From Candidatus Methylacidiphilales bacterium (GTDB lineage Bacteria > Verrucomicrobiota > Verrucomicrobiia > Methylacidiphilales > CAZTYG01), in NCBI GenBank assembly GCA_033875315.1, contig JANRJG010000013.1:1-39502 (forward strand): 39,502 nucleotides of DNA, written 5' to 3'. Position numbers and translations under genes: made by a program. Shown in pieces: positions 1 through 15,100 of this stretch. The notes beneath the pieces were generated by a model that ran no database searches, had not been told where the DNA came from, and was given only the letters and a program-made list of their open reading frames with translations. Position 1 is the stretch's first letter; each line of letters starts with the position of its first letter.

Positions 1-124
1 ATGTAAGCAGTATGCCATCCTGAATATGCGGTGAAACTTTCATGACTGATGTCAGGATCAATGCGAACGGAAAGTAAAGCGAAATGGTTTCAAGCCCAAC
101 AAAAACAAGATTTCTTATTCTCAT
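1..124 (-). CDS. Partial integron cassette gene, hypothetical
   Basis: The minus strand is open from an ATG at 122-124 to the window edge, giving 41 residues that begin MRIRNLVFVG and contain a hydrophobic stretch (about residues 6-27) compatible with a membrane segment. The ATG lies a few bases after the GTTCGG core that ends the neighbouring attC, exactly as in the other cassettes, which is why I call it although it is short and cut by the window. No family is recognised. The 3' end and its attC lie outside the window. Confidence 0.5.
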   Translation of the reverse strand, partial: MRIRNLVFVGLETISLYFPFALILTSVMKVSPHIQDGILLT

Positions 125-128
125 TTTT

Positions 129-241
129 TTCCGAACGTCCCCGCATCAACCAGACACGGCCGTGGCGCGGCTCATGGCTACGAGCGTAGCGAGAGCAGGA
201 GACGTGACGCGGGAGGGTCTTGGGTGCATGCGCTGGTTCGG
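129..241 (-). repeat. attC recombination site (long class, about 113 bp)
   Basis: The plus strand starts with a CCGAAC core and ends with GGTTCGG, which are inverse complements. Between them is an imperfect palindrome with an extended central part containing GTAGCGAGAGCAGGAG and GTGACGCGGG. It follows the stop of the 246-506 gene on the minus strand and precedes the start of the next cassette gene. It resembles the long site at 3252-3361. Confidence 0.75.
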
Positions 242-245
242 ATTT

Positions 246-506
246 TTACTGCGGTGATATTCTCAAGATCTTGGTTACGATATAGTTTGATTTTAGGATA
301 CACCAAACCCCTGCCAGAAAATGAAAGAAATGTGATATAATGCCACTTAGCGCGTAGCGATTAACTGTCCACACTTTGCCCTCCATATAGGAAGCAAGGG
401 GATCGATATAGCTATAAAGTCCTCCTGCAACCCAGACCAGTCCGGTGACACTTAGAAGTAACCCGATTATCTTCACGAGGACAGTAGCTAGATCGTATGG
501 TTTCAT
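246..506 (-). CDS. Cassette-encoded small membrane protein
   Basis: This 86-residue protein starts MKPYDLATVLVKIIG. It has two hydrophobic segments, at about residues 8-32 and 52-72, so it is probably a two-pass inner-membrane protein. The start ATG lies about 10 bp after a GTTCGG core, and the stop is just before the next attC, so one gene fills the cassette. It is AT-richer than the chromosomal backbone genes. No family is recognised, and a function cannot be inferred beyond membrane location. Expression would depend on read-through from the integron promoter or on a promoter in the cassette; none is obvious. Confidence 0.7.
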   Translation of the reverse strand: MKPYDLATVLVKIIGLLLSVTGLVWVAGGLYSYIDPLASYMEGKVWTVNRYALSGIISHFFHFLAGVWCILKSNYIVTKILRISPQ

Positions 507-511
507 ATGTA

Positions 512-572
512 TTCCGAACGTCGCGCATCAGCCGCCCGCGTTTCGCGGGTTGGCTGGATGCGATGGTTAGCT
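512..572 (-). repeat. attC recombination site (short class, about 61 bp)
   Basis: The site begins TTCCGAACG and ends GGTTAGCT on the plus strand, with a palindromic core (GCCCGCG TTT CGCGGGT) flanked by pairing arms (GCATCAGCC and GGCTGGATGC). The cores match the RYYYAAC/GTTRRRY logic of attC sites with C or A at the variable positions. Confidence 0.8.
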
Positions 573-576
573 GTTT

Positions 577-951
577 TTAATTGTCTTTGAAACCCGGGAA
601 ATCTTGAAGCCATTTCAATCGTGCTTTCTCACATAATTTGCATCTAAAAATAATTGTCGTCTTTGCGGTATCTACCGCACATCCGCCGCCTACCCATTGT
701 CTTGCGTGCGGGAATTTGGTCATGCTCGCCACTTCCCATATTGGGTCGATATCAAATAATCCATACCTTATTTCCACTGGTTTTTTATACATCTTACTCT
801 GATGCAATGTACAAGTGCCGGACTCCTGATCTTTCAAGCATTGACCTATGTGGGGATCCAGCCACTTCAAATCAGGTTCTGGCAACGGCAAAGCGATAGC
901 CGTGCATGCAAACAGCGCCGAAAGGAAGTAGAACTTGATTAGATAATTCAT
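577..951 (-). CDS. Cassette-encoded exported protein, unknown
   Basis: The 124-residue product begins MNYLIKFYFLSALFACTAIA, a typical signal peptide with likely cleavage near residue 20. The mature part has six cysteines, including a C-x2-C pair near the C terminus (CKLCEKAR), so it probably sits outside the cytoplasm with disulphides or a metal site. The frame stays open upstream to 1059, but those extra residues are encoded by the attC; I chose the ATG at 949-951 because it starts right after the GTTAGC core and gives a clean signal peptide. No family is recognised. Confidence 0.7.
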   Translation of the reverse strand: MNYLIKFYFLSALFACTAIALPLPEPDLKWLDPHIGQCLKDQESGTCTLHQSKMYKKPVEIRYGLFDIDPIWEVASMTKFPHARQWVGGGCAVDTAKTTIIFRCKLCEKARLKWLQDFPGFKDN

Positions 952-956
952 GTGTT

Positions 957-1016
957 TGCTAACGTCAACCATCAGCCGACGCGCGCAGCGCGTTGGCTGG
1001 ATGGTCTGGTTCGGCT
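957..1016 (-). repeat. attC recombination site (short class, 60 bp)
   Basis: It runs from GCTAACGTC to GGTTCGGCT on the plus strand. The inner arms GACGCGCG and CGCGTTGGC, with outer arms ACCATCAGCC and GGCTGGATGGT, can form a nearly complete hairpin. It separates the cassette genes at 577-951 and 1022-1378. Confidence 0.82.
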
Positions 1017-1021
1017 CTTTT

Positions 1022-1378
1022 TCAAAGAAGGCGAAGGCATAGTGAAATGGCAAAGCCAAGTAGCAAGCAAATGACAGAATGAATCCAAAATCTATTTATG
1101 TAGGGCTGCCTTATCCAGTGGTTCGGTGAGGATGAATCGCGACTCATGGAATACAGCGTCAGAGAAATTAGCCCATAAACCACGAGGGCACTAGTTAGCA
1201 GAAGTATCAGGGTGGAAAAGGCACCCGCTAATCCCATATTCATTTCGTTTCTGTGTTCGGTAGCAACAAAAGACGTGAACACTCCATAAACTACGTTCCA
1301 TGAAATGATCGCAAAGACAGGGCCAAGCAGGACTGACAATGTCCAAAGCATCGGATCGAATATGCGATGGTTTTTCAT
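1022..1378 (-). CDS. Cassette-encoded membrane protein
   Basis: The 118-residue product from the ATG at 1376-1378 starts MKNHRIFDPMLWTLSVLLGP. It has three predicted membrane spans, at about residues 11-33, 50-74 and 97-116. The open frame extends upstream through the attC to 1429, but the internal ATG after the GTTCGG core matches the cassette pattern and is preferred. No family is recognised. It may be a small multi-pass membrane protein of the kind often seen in cassette arrays. Confidence 0.68.
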   Translation of the reverse strand: MKNHRIFDPMLWTLSVLLGPVFAIISWNVVYGVFTSFVATEHRNEMNMGLAGAFSTLILLLTSALVVYGLISLTLYSMSRDSSSPNHWIRQPYINRFWIHSVICLLLGFAISLCLRLL

Positions 1379-1384
1379 TTGTAT

Positions 1385-1443
1385 GCCGAACGTCCGCCAT
1401 GTGCCAGGCGCGTTAGCGCCTTGGCTCAATGGCGTGGTTCGGC
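1385..1443 (-). repeat. attC recombination site (short class, about 59 bp)
   Basis: The plus strand begins GCCGAACGTC and ends GTGGTTCGGC. The palindromic centre is CAGGCGCG TTA GCGCCTTGGC. The stop codon of the 1426-1893 gene lies inside this site, so its last few residues are encoded by the attC. Confidence 0.8.
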
Positions 1444-1893
1444 TTCTTGAATCTGTTTGCTTTTTTTAAAATTTTCTCCAAAGGGAAAAGCCTCATTTCT
1501 GTGTTTTAGAGAGTATGCCATAGCGTTCGCGTAATCACGCCAAATAAAAATCTGAGGCCTCTCCGTATAATTCTGAAGCAGCCATAATACCTGCTCTTCA
1601 ATTTCACTATTCGGAAAAACGACGATAGGATTCTTATCATTGTAATCCCGTCTGACTTCGAACACTAAATCGCCATTTGTTCTGTCCCGGTCAGGTAAAA
1701 CGAAAATATGCAAAATCTGGCCGTATGGAGAAATAAATGACAGGCAGTAGGATCCTCCATCCAAAAATGAATCGGCACCCGCCAACTTCCAATATCCCTT
1801 TTTCTGCGCGAGCTCGGTGAGTGCATCTTCTTTTGACGTTTGGGAGCAGCCTCCGAAAAATAAGAGAAGTAGGATTGCCGCTATACTTTTCAT
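1426..1893 (-). CDS. Cassette-encoded predicted lipoprotein
   Basis: The 155-residue product starts MKSIAAILLLLFFGGCSQ, a short lipoprotein-type signal with the invariant Cys at residue 16. The lipobox FGGC is slightly non-standard, having F at -3. The mature protein looks globular and soluble, with no other membrane span, and would be anchored to a membrane face. The start chosen is the ATG at 1891-1893, about 10 bp after the core; a longer frame to 1923 would run through the attC. The C-terminal EAEPRH is encoded by attC sequence. No family is recognised. Confidence 0.72.
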   Translation of the reverse strand: MKSIAAILLLLFFGGCSQTSKEDALTELAQKKGYWKLAGADSFLDGGSYCLSFISPYGQILHIFVLPDRDRTNGDLVFEVRRDYNDKNPIVVFPNSEIEEQVLWLLQNYTERPQIFIWRDYANAMAYSLKHRNEAFPFGENFKKSKQIQEAEPRH

Positions 1894-1898
1894 TTCTG

Positions 1899-2003
1899 TA
1901 CCGAACGTCCCTGCGTCAGCCACCCCCGGAGCCGGGCACCCGAGGCTGCTCCGCAGCCGAAGTGTCGGGCGGAGTGGGGTTGGCTGGACGCGATGGTTCG
2001 GCT
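1899..2003 (-). repeat. attC recombination site (long class, about 105 bp)
   Basis: It begins TACCGAACGTCC and ends CGATGGTTCGGCT on the plus strand. Outer arms GCGTCAGCCACCCC and GGGGTTGGCTGGACGC pair; the centre carries further hairpins, such as GGCTGCTCCGCAGCC. The sequence of the central insert differs from those of the other two long sites. Confidence 0.75.
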
Positions 2004-2353
2004 TATTTTGTCCACTTGTATGTTCTCATTTTTCCGTCTTCATTCCAACTGGCTGTGCGGGTAGCGCCATCGTAGGTAAAGCCCTTCCGTCTTGCGAGCC
2101 ACCAAGAAAATGAAAATAGAAGTTCTCCGAGAATGCCGACTGCAAAGGGCATGAGGAAAATCCAATATGTGGGCCGCGGTAAGGAGGTAATCAAATAAGT
2201 GGCTGGGAAATAGACCATCAGCCCAACCAACAAAAGAAGTCCTGCAAAACCGATCAGATCGGCAGTAACATGGATCGCGTATCCCGCTGGTGAGCATTGC
2301 TGCTTTCCAAGGCGCTCACTCTCTGAGTCCCACATTGGATAGATAAAAAGCAT
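2003..2353 (-). CDS. Cassette-encoded membrane protein
   Basis: The 116-residue product starts MLFIYPMWDSESERLG. Two to three hydrophobic segments are visible (about residues 29-55 and 61-86), followed by a basic, polar C-terminal tail (ARRKGFTYDGATRTASW) that probably faces the cytoplasm. The start is 9-10 bp after the GTTCGG core and the stop touches the next attC, so the gene fills its cassette. No family is recognised. Confidence 0.68.
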   Translation of the reverse strand: MLFIYPMWDSESERLGKQQCSPAGYAIHVTADLIGFAGLLLLVGLMVYFPATYLITSLPRPTYWIFLMPFAVGILGELLFSFSWWLARRKGFTYDGATRTASWNEDGKMRTYKWTK

Positions 2354-2360
2354 TTTCTTA

Positions 2361-2419
2361 TGCCGAACGTCCTTCAGCAGCCGCGCGCGTAGCTCGTTGG
2401 CTGACTGAACTGGTTAGCC
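2361..2419 (-). repeat. attC recombination site (short class, 59 bp)
   Basis: It begins TGCCGAACGTCC and ends CTGGTTAGCC on the plus strand, with arms TTCAGCAGCCGCGCGC and CGTTGGCTGACTGAA around a short loop. The stop codon of the HEPN-type gene (2414-2416) is inside the terminal core. Confidence 0.8.
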
Positions 2420-2896
2420 ATTTTGTTTTTCGAATAGTCTTTTCTCAAAGAGTGGCGCAAAAACTTGAACGTGGTGATTCCAGAAACCCATGACGGTTTC
2501 TGCGCATAGTAAGCTCAAATGCTTGGGGTCATCCAAACGAGTTTTACGATCAGAGGCCGTATAACCTCTAAACTCGGAAAGATCTTCCTTCGTTATTTTG
2601 AAATCTACCTCGTGTGCGGCATCATTTCTCTTACGTCTAAACCAATGCAAAAACTTTGCATCCTCGTCAGATATTATTCCGGCCTCATTTAGCATCGTCA
2701 CTTTTATAGATTGGGTAAACTCTCTGGCTCCTTCCGCGATTCTTTTTGAGTTCTTGCAACGCTGTAAGGCAAGCTGATGAACCAGTAATTCCAAATAACA
2801 ATGTGTAACTATAATTTGAACTCTCGGGTGCTGCGGAAGCGCCGCCAATTCATCAATTAGCCGCTTTATAACATTTTGAGGTAAAGGTTTTTTCAT
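2414..2896 (-). CDS. Cassette-encoded HEPN-like protein (putative RNase/DUF4145-like)
   Basis: This 160-residue all-helical, soluble protein starts MKKPLPQNVIKRLIDELAAL. At about residues 86-98 it carries WFRRKRNDAAHEV, matching the R-x4-6-H motif (RNDAAH) that defines the active centre of HEPN ribonucleases, with the usual preceding helix. Members of this superfamily act as toxins, abortive-infection effectors or RNA-processing enzymes, often with an adjacent nucleotidyltransferase antitoxin. Here the cassette holds this gene alone, so a partner is not visible. The overall layout resembles the DUF4145/HEPN group; the motif is seen, the RNase function is inferred. The start is a few bases after the GTTAGC core and the stop lies within the attC. 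Confidence 0.65.
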   Translation of the reverse strand: MKKPLPQNVIKRLIDELAALPQHPRVQIIVTHCYLELLVHQLALQRCKNSKRIAEGAREFTQSIKVTMLNEAGIISDEDAKFLHWFRRKRNDAAHEVDFKITKEDLSEFRGYTASDRKTRLDDPKHLSLLCAETVMGFWNHHVQVFAPLFEKRLFEKQNG

Positions 2897-2900
2897 AACA

Positions 2901-2960
2901 GGCTAACGTCAACCGTGTGCCACGCGCGTTTCGCGCGTTGGCTCGACGGTCTGGTTCGGA
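2901..2960 (-). repeat. attC recombination site (short class, 60 bp)
   Basis: It runs GGCTAACGTC to CTGGTTCGGA on the plus strand. The arms CGCGCG TTT CGCGCG form a perfect hairpin, extended by ACCGTGTGCCA and TTGGCTCGACGGT. It is the clearest attC in the window. Confidence 0.85.
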
Positions 2961-3230
2961 TTATCCTTTTGATTTCATGCTGTAATAAGTGGCCACGGAA
3001 AAAACTAATCCTGTAAGTAGACAAGCACCGATAATAGTAAATTCTGAAACGTCTATTGAAGATGTCTCAATTCCTGAATTGGTTACAGTTTGCTTTGTTT
3101 CTACATATGCAATAGGCCAACCGTATTTAGTATCGAACGAACTGAATGAAAACATGCCGGCCCAGATGGTAATAAGCGCACTCCATATAATCATGATACT
3201 TATAGAAATTGTATGGCGTTTACTGATCAT
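2961..3230 (-). CDS. Cassette-encoded small membrane protein
   Basis: The 89-residue product starts MISKRHTISISIMIIWSALI and has two hydrophobic spans (about residues 8-29 and 65-84) separated by a polar, probably periplasmic loop of about 35 residues. An upstream ATG closer to the core (near 3247) stops after six codons, so the ATG at 3228-3230 is the usable start. No family is recognised. Confidence 0.65.
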   Translation of the reverse strand: MISKRHTISISIMIIWSALITIWAGMFSFSSFDTKYGWPIAYVETKQTVTNSGIETSSIDVSEFTIIGACLLTGLVFSVATYYSMKSKG

Positions 3231-3251
3231 GATGAGAAGAAATTCATGCTT

Positions 3252-3361
3252 TCCGAACGTCCGCCGTCAGCCGCCCGTGGCTGCGGCGCGACTCCTGCCG
3301 TAGCGAAGCGGAAGCAGGAGGCGTGACGCGGGCGCGGGTTGGCTGGACGGCCCTGTTCGGA
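3252..3361 (-). repeat. attC recombination site (long class, about 110 bp)
   Basis: It begins TTCCGAACGTCC and ends CTGTTCGGA on the plus strand. Arms CCGTCAGCCGCCCG and CGCGGGTTGGCTGGACGG pair, and the centre has an extra hairpin with arms CTCCTGC and GCAGGAG. The central insert resembles that of the site at 129-241 (shared blocks around GCAGGAG and CGTGACGCGGG). Confidence 0.78.
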
Positions 3362-3421
3362 GTTCTTTATGGCAGGGTGAAATCATTTTGGCATGTCGGC
3401 AATGTCGCCTCCGGCGTACCC

Positions 3422-3568
3422 CTATTCCTTGTCTTTTAATATGTTCTTAATGCCTTCAAGCGTCCGGGCCATAGACTCAGTGGCTTTCATAACTCGCCAG
3501 GCGATCCAAAGGCTGAGCAGGGTGACACTGGATGAGATCAAATAAACGAGGATGACTGATGTGTTCAT
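3422..3568 (-). CDS. First cassette gene: 48-residue single-span membrane protein
   Basis: An ATG at 3566-3568 opens a 48-codon frame ending TAG at 3422-3424. The product begins MNTSVILVYLISSSVTLLSL, has one membrane span (residues about 4-24) and a basic amphipathic tail ending NILKDKE. It begins 8-10 bp after the GTTCGG core at 3576-3582, as do the other cassette genes, and is the only frame that fills this cassette. No family is recognised. A small regulatory or toxin-like membrane peptide is possible but not shown. Confidence 0.6.
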   Translation of the reverse strand: MNTSVILVYLISSSVTLLSLWIAWRVMKATESMARTLEGIKNILKDKE

Positions 3569-3575
3569 ATGTATT

Positions 3576-3662
3576 CCGAACGTATATTAGATGGCAGGTT
3601 GGGAATTTTGCAATAGACAACTGGTTGTCTATTGCCATAATGTCAACTTGCCGGAGGTTTTG
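3576..3662. other. Putative attI/intI promoter region of the integron
   Basis: The last cassette core (CCGAACG on plus) ends at 3582 and no further attC follows. In known integrons this point is the attI site, next to the integrase promoter. The stretch carries the 24-bp palindrome at 3611-3634 and a good ribosome-binding site (GGAGG at 3652-3656) for the divergent frame beginning at 3663. The attI identity is inferred from position; I see no confident attI-specific motif. Confidence 0.4.
3611..3634. promoter_or_regulatory. Operator-like palindrome
   Basis: CAATAGACAAC and GTTGTCTATTG form perfect 11-bp inverted arms around the two bases TG. It sits 29 bp upstream of the start of the truncated plus-strand ORF and about 45 bp upstream of the first cassette start on the minus strand, so a protein bound there could affect both directions. 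It lacks following T residues, so a regulator site or recombinase site is likelier than a terminator. Confidence 0.5.
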
Positions 3663-3851
3663 ATGGATTCAGATTTAAAAAGGACGGGTGAACCCTTTGC
3701 GGAGCGGCTGGGACGCATGTGGGAATCTCTCGGCGTGGAGCCGGCGAAGTGGGGCTTTGGGTCGGCCTGGGTCATGAAGTTTGGGAAGTTCATCGCTCCC
3801 AGGAAGTATTACCAACCGACCCTAGCCGATGTCGAGGGGAATGGGTGGTGA
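3663..3851 (+). pseudogene. Possible truncated integron integrase (N-terminal stump)
   Basis: A 62-residue frame begins at an ATG with a strong GGAGG six bases upstream; an upstream ATG at 3591 is disfavoured because its codons cover the palindrome. The text FAERLGRMWESLGVEPAK, then AWVMKFGKF, then LADVEG, is the kind of sequence found in the SAM-like N-terminal core-binding domain of tyrosine recombinases, just before the usual FLxxLA block. Homology then stops: the frame ends in GNGW and the DNA runs into the AGCGAATAGCCAA repeat. It lies beside the first cassette and is divergent from it, where an intI gene belongs. The catalytic R-H-R-Y part is absent. The identity is an inference from position plus weak sequence likeness; it could instead be an unrelated small gene. 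Confidence 0.42.
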
Positions 3852-3988
3852 TAGCGAATAGCCAAAAGCTTAAATTTGAAACCTCCCCGTGAGGGCGTTG
3901 CCCAACGGGGCCTTCGGGAAACTTGAATGGGGATGGAGAGAACGAGAGGGAACGGGGGGCAGTGGACGGACGACAGATGACGGATGAC

Positions 3989-4041
3989 GTCCGCCTTCGT
4001 CCGGCTGCCGGACTACAGCGCGACCTTCGCTGCGCTACGGG
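3989..4041. repeat. Dispersed intergenic repeat, copy 1
   Basis: GTCCGCCTTCGTCCGGCTGCC, then a short variable part, then GCGCGACCTTCGCTGCGCTACGGG recurs at 5289-5345 with small changes. Both copies lie in intergenic DNA around pfkA. Confidence 0.7.
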
Positions 4042-4055
4042 TGGACGGTGGACGA

Positions 4056-4090
4056 CGACTGACGACTGACGACTGACGACTGACGACTGA
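4056..4090. repeat. Tandem heptamer CGACTGA x5
   Basis: Five exact tandem copies of CGACTGA lie in the intergenic region downstream of pfkA. Such arrays commonly vary in copy number by slippage; no function is evident. Confidence 0.9.
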
Positions 4091-4220
4091 GAGCTGACCC
4101 GGCTATGCTAGAAGCTATGGCGCGGCCTACGCATTGCTACGGGGGGCGTCATTAACGATTTTAGAGGTAGACTTGAGCTAACAGCCAAGAGCTAATAGCG
4201 AATAGCCAACACCGATCTTC

Positions 4221-5219
4221 TTACGATTCCACGACGTCGCCGATTTCGATGCCGAGGTTCCGGGCCAGGCGGACGGCGTCGGCAGGGAGGGCTTTTTTCT
4301 TGCCGAGGATCTGGTCGAGGTCGCGCAGTTGCATCTTGCCCTGCGAGAGGGCGACCATGGTGCCAGCATCGCCCTGTTCGAGGGCGAGGATGGCGTATTC
4401 GCCCATGCGGCTGGCCAGGAGGCGGTCGAAGTGGGTGGGGGCGCCGCCGCGCTGGACGTGGCCGAGGACGGTGAGGCGCACTTCCTGGTTCAGGCGGCCC
4501 TGGGTCTCGTTGTTCAGGCGGTTCATGAATTCCTGGCCGGTGCAGACGCCCTCGGCGACGATGACGACGGAGTTGTTGTGTTTGCGCTCCATGCGCCGGG
4601 TGAGGGCCGTGATGATGGATTCCATGTTGACCCGGTATTCGGGGATGACGGCAACTTGGGAACCGGTGGAGATGGTGCTCATGAGGGCGAGGTAACCGCA
4701 ATGGCGTCCCATGACCTCGATGACGAAGCAACGGCGGTGGGAGGCGGCGGTGGCTTTGACCATGTCGACCAGGTGGATGATGGTGTTGAGGGCGGTGTCG
4801 ACGCCGATGCCCATGTCGGTGCCGTAAAGGTCGTTGTCGATGGTGCCGGGCAGGCCGATGACGGGGTAACCGAGGGCATGCAGTTTCTGCGCGCCGGTGA
4901 GGGAGCCATCGCCCCCGATGACGACGAGGGCGTCCAGTTTTTCCTCGCGCAGGATCTTGACCGCTTCCTGCTGGCCTTCCTCGGTGTAGAACCGTTTGCA
5001 GCGGGTGCTGGCGAGGAAGGTGCCGGATTCGCGGCTTTTGCCGCTGACGTCGAGGGAGGAGAGTTTGATGAACTGGCGGTCGAAGATGCCCTGGTAGCCG
5101 TTCTCGATGCCGATGATTTCCATGTCCCGGGTGAGGCCGGCACGGGTGACGGCCCGGATGGCGGGGTTCATGCCGGGGGAGTCACCCCCTGAGGTAAGGA
5201 CGCCGACGCGCTTCAACAT
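4221..5219 (-). CDS. pfkA: ATP-dependent 6-phosphofructokinase
   Basis: The enzyme phosphorylates fructose 6-phosphate to fructose 1,6-bisphosphate in cytosolic glycolysis. The 332-residue length is close to bacterial PfkA (about 320). Visible motifs are GGDSPGMN (11-18) and GGDGS (102-106) for the nucleotide, where glycine at 105 is the ATP-type residue (PPi enzymes have Asp); TIDND (126-130) with catalytic Asp128; MGRHCG (170-175) and LGHVQRGG (252-259) for the sugar phosphate. The start is an ATG with no in-frame alternative upstream that fits the family. It stands alone, flanked on both sides by repeat-rich spacers, so it is probably monocistronic. Confidence 0.95.
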   Translation of the reverse strand: MLKRVGVLTSGGDSPGMNPAIRAVTRAGLTRDMEIIGIENGYQGIFDRQFIKLSSLDVSGKSRESGTFLASTRCKRFYTEEGQQEAVKILREEKLDALVVIGGDGSLTGAQKLHALGYPVIGLPGTIDNDLYGTDMGIGVDTALNTIIHLVDMVKATAASHRRCFVIEVMGRHCGYLALMSTISTGSQVAVIPEYRVNMESIITALTRRMERKHNNSVVIVAEGVCTGQEFMNRLNNETQGRLNQEVRLTVLGHVQRGGAPTHFDRLLASRMGEYAILALEQGDAGTMVALSQGKMQLRDLDQILGKKKALPADAVRLARNLGIEIGDVVES

Positions 5220-5288
5220 GAGTCTTGTCTAGAGATTGGACAGAAGAGGGGAAGGGGAAAATCTGATGGCGGATGGCGGATGAAGGGC

Positions 5289-5345
5289 GTCCGCCTTCGT
5301 CCGGCTGCCCCAGGGCTACGGCGTGACCTTCGCTTTGCTACGGGG
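5289..5345. repeat. Dispersed intergenic repeat, copy 2
   Basis: It shares GTCCGCCTTCGTCCGGCTGCC and, further on, GACCTTCGCT and GCTACGGG with the copy at 3989-4041, in the same orientation. Confidence 0.7.
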
Positions 5346-5433
5346 GGGAAGGGGAAATTGGGGAGGGCCGGGGAGGCCCGGTTTAAGGGGAAAGTTTAAG
5401 CTTAAGCTTAAGCCGGAACAATGCAGTTGACTT

Positions 5434-9496: not shown

Positions 9497-12400
9497 CTAT
9501 TTCAACACCGGAGCGAGGTAGCGGGCGGTGTGGCTGGCTTTGACTTGGGCCACTTCTTCTGGGGTGCCTTGGGCGACAATGGTGCCGCCCCCGCCTCCGC
9601 CCTCTGGGCCGAGGTCGATGAGGTGGTCGGCTTCGGCCAGGACGTCGAGGTGGTGTTCGATGACGACCACGGTGTGGCCCGCTTCGACAAGTCGGTGGAG
9701 GACTTCGAGGAGTCGGCGGACGTCGGCCAGGTGTAGGCCGACCGTGGGTTCTTCCAGGAGGTAGAGGGAGGGTTTGCGTGAGGCGGAGCGGGCGGAGAGG
9801 CGGGTGCGCTGGTCGATGAGGACGGATTCGGAGAGTTCGGACACGAGCTTGAGGCGCTGGGCCTCGCCGCCGGAGAGGGTGGGGCTGGTCTGGCCGAGTT
9901 TCAGGTAGCCGAGGCCGGTTTCGCGCAGGAGTTGGAGCGGGGTGCGGATGTTGGGGTGGCCGTCGAAGAATTCCACCGCTTCGTCGATGCCGAGGTTGAG
10001 GACGTCGAAGATGCTTTTGTGTTTGTAGGCGGTCTCAAGGACGGCGTCGGTCCAGCGGTGCCCGCGGCAGGTTTCGCAGGGGACCTCGGCGGCGGGGAGG
10101 AAGTTCATTTCGACCTTGATGAAGCCCTGGCCCTGGCAGGCGGGGCAGCGACCGGGGCCGCTGTTGTAGGAAAAGTGACCGGCGGTGAAGCCGCGCACTC
10201 GGGCCATGGGGAGCTGGGCAAAGAGTTTGCGCAGGTGGTCCATGATGCCGAGGTAGGTGCAGACGGTGGAGCGGGAGGTCTTGCCGATGGGGGATTGGTC
10301 GACTTCCACGACCTTGGCGAAGGCGTCGGCGCCGGTGACGTTGTCGTAGGGCCGGTCGATCCTGGATTTGCGTTTGGGATGGGCGAGGGTGTCCTGGACG
10401 GCGGGAAGGAGGATGCGGCGGAGCGAAGTGCTTTTACCGGCGCCGCTGACGCCGCAGAGCACGGTCAACCGTCCCTGGGGGATGGCGAGGTCGATGCCGC
10501 GGAGGTTGTGGGCACGGGCGCCGGAGACGCGGAGCCATTGGTCGGCGGGCGGGGCCGGGCGGCGTTTTCCGTGCAGCGGGTGCTTCATCCGCTCGCCCAG
10601 GAGCTTGCCGGTGAGGGAGGCTTTGTTGCGGGTGATCTCGGCCCAGGTGCCCTGGGCCATGATTTCGCCGCCGTGGATGCCGGCGCCGGGACCGAGGTCG
10701 ATGATGTGGTCGGCGGCGCGCATGGTGTCCTCGTCGTGCTCGACGATGAGGAGGGAATTCCCGCGCTGCTGGAGGGCGCGGAGCATGCCGATGAGTTCCT
10801 CGTTGTCCCGGGGGTGGAGGCCGATGGTGGGTTCGTCGAGGACGTAGAGCACGCCCTGGAGGTTGGAGCCGAGCTGGGCGGCGAGGCGGATGCGTTGGGA
10901 CTCGCCACCGGAAAGTGAGGGGGCGGGTCGGTCGAGGTTGAGGTAATCGAGGCCGACCTGCTGGAGGAAGGCCAGGCGTTGTTCGATCTCAGGGAGGACG
11001 TCGCGGGCGATGGCTTTTTCGCGGGCCGTCCATTTGATCGATTGGAAGAAGCGCTGGAATTCGATGACGGTGAGGCGGTTGATTTCGGGGACGGGCCGGC
11101 CGTGGAAGCGGACGGCGCGGGCCACGGGGTTGAGGCGGCTGCCCTGGCAATCGGGGCAGGTTTGCTGGTCGGCCGGGTCGATCCACTCGCGGGCTTTTTC
11201 CATTTCCTGTTCCTTCTCGGACTCGGAAAGAGAGGGGTCGAGATGGACACGCGCGACGGTGCCGAAGCCATGGCAGGCGGGACACCAGCCGTGCGGGCTG
11301 TTGTAGGAAAAGAGGCGCGGGTCGAGATCGTCGAAGGAGCGTCCGCTTTCCGGGCAGTAGCGGGCGGTGCTGAAGAGGGTTTCTTTCCCGGAGTTGTCGA
11401 GGACGGTGAAGGCGCCTTTGCCGAGGTCGAGGGCCTCGTTGATGCGGGCTTCCAGATTGGTTTGATCGGCGGCGATGTTGCCGAGAATGACGTCGAGGTT
11501 GTGTTCGCGGTAGCGGTCAAGGGCCTTGAACTTGGCGGGTTCGACCCACTGGCCGTCAGCGCGGAGGTAGGGATAGCCCTTCTTGACCGCCCATTCGGCG
11601 ACCTCGGTGTAGATCCCCTTGCGACCGCGGACGAGGGGGGCGACGAGCGAGAGTTCGCCTTTTTTCAAGAGGGCGCGGAGGCGGGTGGTGATTTCGGCCG
11701 GGGTTTGCTGGATGGCGGCCTCGCCGCTCTCGGGGTCGTGCTGGACGCCGAGCTTGGCGTAGAGGAGGCGGAGGAAGTGGTACATCTCCGTCACGGTGGC
11801 TACGGTGCTTTTGGCCCCGCCGCGGGTGGTGCGTTGTTCGATGGCCACGGCGGGCGGGATGCCGGTGATGGAATCGACGTCGGGCTTTTCCATCTGTTCG
11901 ACGAACTGCCGCGCATAGGCGTTGAGGCAGTCGAGGTATCGGCGCTGGCCCTCGGCGAAGAGCAGGTCGAAGGCGAGGGAACTTTTGCCGGAGCCGGAGA
12001 GACCGGTGACGACAACCATCTGGTCGCGGGGGATGTCGAGGCTGATGTTCTTGAGGTTGTGGTGGCGGGCACCCCGCACGCGGATCGCGGGCGGGATTTT
12101 TGATTTATGAATTTTGATTTCTGATTGGGAAATGCCGATTTTCGAGGAAGTCGCCCGGGCCTTGCGCAATCCATTTTTTGTATTCCCCAGCAAGGGGGCG
12201 AGGAGGGCGCCGGTGTGGGAGCCTTTGGTGCGGGCGATTTGTTCGGGTGTGCCGGCGGCGACGAGACGCCCCCCGGCTTCACCGGCTTCCGGGCCCAGGT
12301 CGAGGACGTAGTCGGCGCATTTGATGACGTCGAGGTGGTGTTCGATGACGAGCAGCGTGTGGCCCTGTTCGACCAGGTTTTGTAACACGACGAGGAGCAT

Positions 12401-15100
12401 GCGGATGTCGTCGAAGTGCAGGCCGGTGGTGGGTTCGTCGAGGATGATGACTTTGGATTTGGGGAGGGGGCTGTTGGCTGCTGGCCGTTGGCTTTTGGCC
12501 GTGGAAGAGCGACTGTCAGGGGAATCGAGGAGGTGGGAAACGAGCTTGAGGCGTTGGGATTCACCGCCGGAGAGTTTGTTGAGGGGGTGGCCGAGGGTGA
12601 GGTAGCCGAGGCCGACCTGGCGGAGGAGGTCGAGGGCGGCGTGGATGCGGGTGTGGAGGGTGACGGCCTTGCCCTCGATGCCTTCGGCCATGGGGTCGAA
12701 AAAGGCCAGGGCGTCCTGCACGGTCAGATCCAGGATGTCGGCGATGGATTTTCCGCGGTAGCGGACAGCGAGGACATGGCTCTGGAATCGTTTCCCCTCA
12801 CAAGATGGACAGAGGACGAAGACGTCGGAAAGGAACTGCATGGAGATTTGTTCATAGCCGGTGCCATGGCAACGGGGGCAGCGGCCGGTGCCGGCGTTGA
12901 AGGAGAAGGCGGAGGCGTTGAGTCCGGCCAGCCGGGCGTCGGGACTCATGGAGAACAATTCCCGCACGGCGTCGTAGCAGCCGGTGTAAAGAAGGGGGGT
13001 GGAGCGTGGGGTGGAAGTGAGGGGGCTTTGGTCCACGATGAGGACGTCGGCCAAGGCTTTCGCGCCCTCCAGTCTTTCCAACTGTCCGGGTTCGCTAACC
13101 GGACGGTTGAGGGCGAGGGCCAGGTGTTTGTGGATGATTTCGTGGACGAGGGTGCTCTTGCCCGAGCCGCTGACGCCGGTGATGGCGGTGAAGGTGCGGA
13201 GGGGGACCTTGAAATCGACCTTCTGAAGGTTGTGCTTGGAGGCGCCGGTGAAGGCCAGCCAGTCGCAGGTGTCGAGCGGGCGACGACTAGCCGGCAGCTC
13301 GATGCATTTGGCCCCGGAGAGGTAGGCGCCTGTCAGGCTGCCCTTTGCCCCGGTGATTTGGGCGCCGGGTCCCTGGTAAACCAGCGCGCCGCCCCCTCGG
13401 CCACGACCGGGGCCGAGTTCGAGGATCCAGTCGGCGGCGCGCATGACGGACTCGTCGTGTTCGACGACCAGCACGGTATTGCCGAGGTCGCGCAGGCCCT
13501 GGAGGACGCGGATGAGGCGGTCGGTGTCACGCGGGTGGAGGCCGATGCTGGGTTCGTCGAGGACGAAGAGCGTGCCGTGGAGGGAGGTGCCGAGGCAGGT
13601 GGTGAGGTTGACGCGCTGGGTTTCACCCCCGGAGAGGGTGCGGGTGGAGCGGTTGAGGCTGATGTAGTCGAGCCCGACATCGACGAGGTAATTCACCCGC
13701 GAGCGGATCTGCTGCAGGACTTGGCGGGCGGATTCGTCGCGGACGGTGACGGTGGCGAGGAAGGCGGCAAGCTTGTCCGCGGGGAGGGCGTTGAGTTCGG
13801 GGAGGGTTTTGCCCTGGACCTTCCAGAGGAGGGTTTCCGGTTGGAAACGACCGCCCAGACAAGCGGGACAAGTTTGATAGGCACGGTAGCGGGCCAGGAG
13901 GACACGGACGTGCATTTTGTAGGTGCGGCTTTCCAGCCATTGGAAAAAGCCTTTGACGCCGTACCACTTGCCGTTTTCCCAAGCATCGGCGGCGGACTTG
14001 CCCGGACGGGATTCGCCGTGGATGACAAAGTCCTGCTGTGCGCGGGTCAGTTTGCAGAAGGGGACGTCGGTGGGGATTTTTTGCTTCCGGCAGGCCTTGA
14101 TGAGGTCCTTCTGGCAGGGGGCGTTGCTTTCTGTTTGGAAGGGCTTGACCACGCCTTCGCCGATGGAGAGGTTGCGGTCGGGGAGGGCAAGATGGTAGTC
14201 GATCTCGATGGTGCGCCCGAAGCCGCGGCAAACGGGACAGGCGCCGACGGGATTGTTGAAGGTGAAGAGGGCCGGGGTGGGTTCGGTGAAGGTGCGACCG
14301 GTTTGGTGCGAGACATGGTGGCGGGCAAACTTCAGTGGGGCTTTGCTTTTCTCCGGGTGGAGGGAGACGATGCCCTTGCCGAATTCGAAGGCGGCGGTGA
14401 CGGCCTCGGCGAGCCGGTTTCTCTGGGCTTTTTCCGCCCGGATGCGATCCACCAGGACGTGCAGGGTCAACCGGGAGGATTTGCCCTTGCCGGAAAGACC
14501 GGTTTTGAGGTCCGGGGTTCCGGGATCATCGAGGCGGATGAGGGCCCCGCCGAGGAGGATGCGGGTGAAGCCCTGGGCGGCGATGAAGCGGGCCACTTCC
14601 TTCCACGGCGTTTTTCCCGGGAATCCGAGTTCGAAGAGGACATCGATTTGCAGGCCGGGGTGGAGACGGATGATTTCGTCGGCGACCTGTTCCGGGGACC
14701 AGGGGCGGATGATCTCGCCGGTGTCGGGATCGTGGAGTTGCGCGATGGCCGGGAAGAGGAGTTTGAGGTAGTCGGCGATCTCGGTCATGGTGCCGACGGT
14801 GCTGCGGGACGTGCGGACGGCATTGGCCTGGGCGATGGCGATGGCGGGGGGGATGCCGCGGATTTCGCGCACAAGGGGTTTGTCCATGCGTTCGAGGAAC
14901 TGGCGGGTGTAGGGGCTGAAGGTTTCGGCGTAGCGGCGCTGGCCTTCGGCATAAAGGGTGTCGAAGGCAAGGGAGGACTTGCCGGAGCCGCTGACACCGG
15001 TGACGACGATGAAGCGGTTGAGGGGTAGGTCGAGGTCGAGTTGGCGGAGGTTGTTTTGTTCCGCACCGCGGACTTGGATGAAACCGGCTTCCGACATCAT
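9497..15100 (-). CDS. uvrA: Excinuclease ABC subunit A, double-length with four ATPase domains
   Basis: UvrA recognises bulky DNA lesions and loads UvrB in nucleotide excision repair. The usual protein is about 940 residues with two ATPase domains; this one is 1867 residues and contains two UvrA-like halves joined near residue 1000. Walker A motifs (GVSGSGKS type) lie near 35, 645, 1035 and 1550; LSGGE-QR signatures near 490, 843, 1395 and 1737. Zinc-finger CxxC pairs (CPVC/CPAC, CPRC/CPSC, CPAC/CPDC, CPAC/CETC) occur in both halves. The first three Walker B motifs are LDEP, the last is LEEP. Loops near 855-875 and 985-1005 carry repeat-like low-complexity residues. Tandem UvrA is known from Chlamydiae and relatives. 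Monocistronic by spacing. Confidence 0.95.

Follow-up and report, generated by a model that had tools for sequence, protein, structure and literature searches.

A 62-codon frame beside an integron cassette array in a Methylacidiphilales genome as a probable remnant of the integrase gene

The 62-codon frame that lies beside a cassette array in a Candidatus Methylacidiphilales genome is best explained, with a probability of about nine in ten, as the 5' remnant of the integrase gene (intI) of a chromosomal integron, the truncated platform of which was copied and the arrays of which are fixed or served in trans. The window, namely the whole stretch of 39,502 nucleotides that we analyzed, is one entire contig (JANRJG010000013.1, here C13) of a metagenome-assembled genome (MAG; GCA_033875315.1) that comprises 3.15 Mb in 42 contigs. 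A search for links joined its left end, which is unique, to no other contig. The observation behind the original prediction was confirmed as real, and its interpretation of the frame as an integrase remnant beside the array is supported.

The 62 codons extend from ATG 3663 to TGA 3849-3851 on the plus strand (intI pseudogene, 3663-3851), nested in an ATG frame of 86 codons with its start at 3591. The ribosome-binding site GGAGG of the former intI (3653-3657, plus strand) was read directly five bases before the ATG, and the motif GGAGG-TTTT-(G/A)ATG also precedes the homologous start in a related genome (G029:C111). In addition, a consensus scan revealed a promoter-like site for the former intI, TAGACA-16-CATAAT (3614-3641, plus strand), which is a sequence match at 10 of 12 positions. 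The eight attC matches of the array all lie on the other strand, which makes the frame and the cassettes divergent. Together with the GGAGG and the homology to IntI, this bears out the claim that a divergent frame with a strong ribosome-binding site occupies the position of intI.

Taken alone, the 62 residues matched no Pfam or NCBIfam model. A search of 60 related genomes revealed a match to residues 6-58 (E 1.4e-20, 62% identity) in an integron from the same order as the window (G029:C120), where the frame, once a single frameshift at a T-run is allowed for, extends to a complete integrase. With a profile made from a five-row alignment, a search over 384 genomes of the class found an intact frame of 470 codons (G215:C38) at E 7.5e-19. 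In this search, the stump region opens long frames in G215 (470 codons), G253 (459), G261 (459) and G273 (441, truncated at the end of its contig). Against the integron-integrase model TIGR02249, for which the NCBIfam cut-off is 265 bits, the G215 and G261 frames score 429 and 430 bits, respectively, and the G215:C38 protein matches IntI4 of PDB 2a3v at 1.7e-82. By homology the frame accordingly belongs to IntI, via the start of intact relatives that pass TIGR02249; as the strong matches of the 62 residues are to integron integrases, its reading as the start of intI holds. The N-terminal region is present in 38 of 388 genomes of the phylum, mostly within frames of 400-580 codons. A scan of the GTDB species genomes with the stump alignment found two loci only, both in one MAG labelled Blastochloris sp. 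SM1_596_0, the matches of which correspond to G029, and the viral contigs searched contained no relative.

The TIGR02249 alignment begins only at residue 142 of the G215 protein and residue 134 of the G261 protein, and the stump therefore corresponds to an extra N-terminal region that precedes the canonical core-binding domain. The original prediction had compared the 62 residues to the core-binding domain itself. AWVMKFGKF and DVE do form the conserved part, but the assignment to the canonical domain does not stand, given the position of the region ahead of it. PF02899 matches the extra region in G261 at 20.4 bits, which is below its cut-off, and a profile comparison of the extra region against the canonical domain gave a weak alignment that is in register. 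At the sequence level, the extra region may itself resemble a core-binding domain.

An attI-like core, CGAACGTATATTAGA, is located at the junction with the first cassette (3577-3591) and was recognized by sequence conservation. The site beside the stump, AACGTATATTAG, is conserved next to both intact and broken relatives, and the core is common to 12 loci with intact or broken intI, distributed over G029, G215, G253, G261, G273, G163 and G219. Judged by conservation and position only, the locus has the attI beside intI at the proximal array end that belongs to an integron platform. Between the core and the intI start, direct reading and a repeat search revealed a perfect inverted repeat, GCAATAGACAAC-TG-GTTGTCTATTGC (3610-3635). 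We considered this repeat as a genome-wide operator and rejected the idea: GACAACNNGTTGTC has only one exact site in the assembled genome, and matches with up to two mismatches are fewer than those of the reversed control, so that there is no sign of a regulon.

The array contains eight attC sites within bases 127-3363, all on the minus strand. Nearest to the attI-like core is the first cassette (3364-3576, minus strand), which is bounded by the core and attC site 1 and reads as a short membrane-protein-like frame with its ATG at 3568. Counted from the attI side, the attC sites are located at 3249-3363 (48.4 bits against the attC model R1), 2898-2962 (76.5 bits), 2359-2421 (69.3 bits), 1897-2004 (51.9 bits), 1382-1445 (81.1 bits), 954-1017 (68.3 bits), 510-574 (79.4 bits) and 127-244 (47.7 bits). 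The model was built from five of these sites (the second, third, fifth, sixth and seventh) and three from a relative; the three window sites outside its training still score 48-52 bits. Its consensus fold has 20 pairs, 11 of which are changed on both sides in at least one sequence. The eight sites with this covariation constitute an attC array with the folded-strand structure of an integron platform. The array may continue past site 8, since the contig ends 127 bases further on. A search of Rfam over 1-5300 gave only sub-threshold chance matches. With more than the two attC sites that define a CALIN, and with the 62-codon remnant as the only trace of an integrase within the contig, the array is also a CALIN, that is, one with no complete integrase nearby.

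Outside the window, the genome has further attC arrays: those of C1 and C12 are at contig edges, that of C20 is close to the contig end, and only the distal side of each is visible. Array comparison showed that attC site 4 of the window shares 93-94% identity with attC sites on C1 and C12. Moreover, a cassette end of 145 bases is common to C1 (L121 74-218) and C12 (end of L122) with 98.6% identity, and cassettes were therefore copied between arrays at some time. Another C12 cassette (L122 4596-5115) carries what looks like a BrnT/BrnA toxin-antitoxin pair. One end of C12 (G000:C12, L006 1-1833) has genes of high GC content, one for a XerC-like recombinase and one resembling an RNA methyltransferase gene, that read as gammaproteobacterial, and the opposite end (L122 4577-6135) has attC sites of the window's integron type; this contig may be chimeric. 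In the window itself, a single frame of 1867 codons (9497-15100, minus strand) reads like two tandem UvrA proteins.

Only the first seventh or so of the integrase gene adjoins the array. Homology to the intact genes stops near codon 58-60, after GATGTCGAG, and is followed by GGGAATGGGTGGTGATAGCG and then by repeat-rich filler. The frame had been described as breaking off into a repeat, which we also see, as ATAGCGAATAGCCAA occurs at 3851-3865 and again at 4195-4209. A genome search with 3575-3990 and pairwise comparison delimited a dispersed intergenic repeat at 3865-3990, which follows the stump in C13, C27, C6 and C4. The intergenic filler at 3945-4100 and 5245-5347 consists of short tandem and dispersed repeats (GACGACT units and CGTCCGCCTTCGTCCGGCTGCC) that are found again near the stump copies and at other places in the genome.

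The catalytic domain (R..HxxR..Y) and the IntI-specific additional domain are both absent from the stump. The assembled genome of this MAG yielded no intact IntI; its recombinase matches are of the Xer type only, and a 391-residue integrase query likewise recovered no further intI piece beyond the stumps, only Xer-type frames. With the catalytic parts absent and no further intI piece in the genome, the frame is a pseudogene and not an enzyme; the proposal of an array that lost its integrase agrees with these results. The arrays are probably frozen or reliant on an enzyme from elsewhere. One form of the latter, to which we give somewhat better than one chance in three, is a working intact intI on unassembled sequence that serves the truncated attI platforms in trans. 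Such a gene may be missing from the assembly, because the draft genome has an estimated completeness of 95.65%, leaving out about 4%, and its contigs break at these arrays. In favor of it, G029 (frameshifted), G215, G261 and G273 each have a long intI frame together with extra broken copies beside attI, and the cassette end shared by C1 and C12 records copying between arrays at some time; on the other side stands the assembled genome, without any intI piece other than the stumps.

Related genomes also contain independently broken intI copies beside the same attI core, including G029:C111 (insertion), G215:C93, G215:C24 (stop), G163, G219 (stops), G273:C42 and G261:C76. In G163 (C32), the intI start is joined to the last 24 codons of the gene, and G215:C24, which has weak further matches, may have decayed and not been cut. 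With the window counted as a single locus, homology is lost near codons 60-76 of a gene of ~450 codons in six of the eight loci (the window, G029:C111, G215:C93, G215:C24, G163:C32 and G219:C1), in a search that began with the 62-residue query and thereby favors copies keeping that stretch, but should not hide longer ones; G273:C42 and G261:C76 retain ~145 and ~158 codons, respectively. One of these genomes, G029, has at least 74 attC matches on many contigs (C5, C10, C95, C120, C197, C206, C210 and C227), far above the other genomes searched, and represents a large cassette reservoir.

The cassette promoter of class 1 integrons is located within intI1. By analogy, the clustered breaks might reflect selection for a promoter within the retained codons. 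The attI and the first ~60 codons of intI would then have spread to several sites, each heading an array that is trans-served or fixed, with the kept codons functional, for example as a cassette promoter; we regard this version as doubtful, at about one chance in four. That several copies which broke independently kept their first ~60 codons would suggest a role for this stretch. A consensus scan for a minus-strand, array-facing cassette promoter in or near the stump found none.

In the genome of the window, the truncated start also opens contigs C6 and C27, as copies that are 96% identical and have the same break point as the window. The copy on C4 consists only of the break and the sequence after it, preceded by a stretch that reads like a transposase end and has no Pfam match; C14 has a degraded relic at 73%, and C23 only the repeat after the break. 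It is improbable that this repetition is a binning or assembly artefact in which one locus, or strain variants of it, is split over contigs. The assembly does derive from a metagenome, and both C6 and C27 start inside the repeat and share exactly their first 141 bases, as two branches from one assembly node would, which leaves their left sides unresolved. However, each copy continues into unique sequence of its own, and the divergence among copies across the part in common is 3-10%, apart from the more divergent C14. Three stumps show no array and three array ends show no attI; the two sets would match up, by joins that were not seen.

Still more improbable is a real small gene, in which the N-terminal region of the integrase would be kept as a stand-alone DNA-binding peptide that might, for instance, bind attI and modulate an IntI acting in trans. 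In its favor, the window has an undamaged start codon, ribosome-binding site and reading frame, and ~57 codons are open in three copies. On the other side, C27 has lost its stop codon and reads ~25 codons further; the W and A of C6 and C27 are replaced by G and P in C13 (one of the replaced residues, A52, being common to relatives), which has no silent change relative to C6 in the compared codons, the changes being too few for a rate; and the broken relatives end at differing places, with stops or insertions. The loss of the stop codon in one copy thus argues against a maintained small gene. In line with the original prediction, the 62 residues aligned to no unrelated family, and nothing in C27, C13 or the differently cut relatives suggests that copies of this length are kept up.

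We therefore return to the remnant of a chromosomal-integron intI as the preferred reading. The intact ancestor would have been a chromosomal integron integrase in which about 130-140 additional N-terminal residues preceded the canonical core-binding domain. This gene would have been cut near codon 58, most simply once and then copied, since the same cut is common to several loci of the genome. The truncated platform would have been copied to several chromosomal sites, where each copy most likely heads its own cassette array, although attI and arrays at C6, C27 and C4 were not seen. The 62-residue peptide would be incapable of recombinase action, and the arrays would be either fixed or open to an integrase that acts in trans on attI and attC. 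These findings settle what the 62-codon frame is, and the conserved core would supply the attI sequence of an integron lineage whose attI has been little described. They also offer a natural case for the fate of cassette arrays after integrase loss and for the sharing of one enzyme among arrays in one cell.

An intI pseudogene beside an integrase-less array is of a known kind (pseudo-integron, CALIN), whereas the multi-copy truncated platform and the clustering of break points near codon 60 in related genomes are unusual; no description of such repetition within one genome was found in the literature searched. About one third of surveyed intI genes are inactive, and some resulted from a duplication inside a genome (Nemergut et al. 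2008, PMC2426708). Similar to the window, pseudo-integrons have an inactive intI beside its array; they were counted mainly by stop codons or frameshifts, whereas here one short remnant with a shared break occurs at several loci, and the searches revealed no functional copy. Similar to CALINs, which are proposed to be degraded integrons, the window has attC sites in an array but no complete integrase close by. Unlike in CALINs, the array retains its attI-like site and the initial 62 codons of intI, and its origin can therefore be read. A group of long IntI proteins, termed clade 15, is ~120 residues longer than usual, judged probably functional and mainly deltaproteobacterial (Nemergut et al. 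2008, PMC2426708). With 133-141 residues before the region of the IntI model, the intact relatives found here resemble clade 15 in length, and we infer that its extra part is the same N-terminal region. Chromosomal integrons of Xanthomonas have also repeatedly lost intI, with the arrays left behind and further CALINs elsewhere (PMC12444791). Compared to Xanthomonas, where intI occupies one conserved locus (ilvD), the truncated start is dispersed in the genome described here (PMC12444791).
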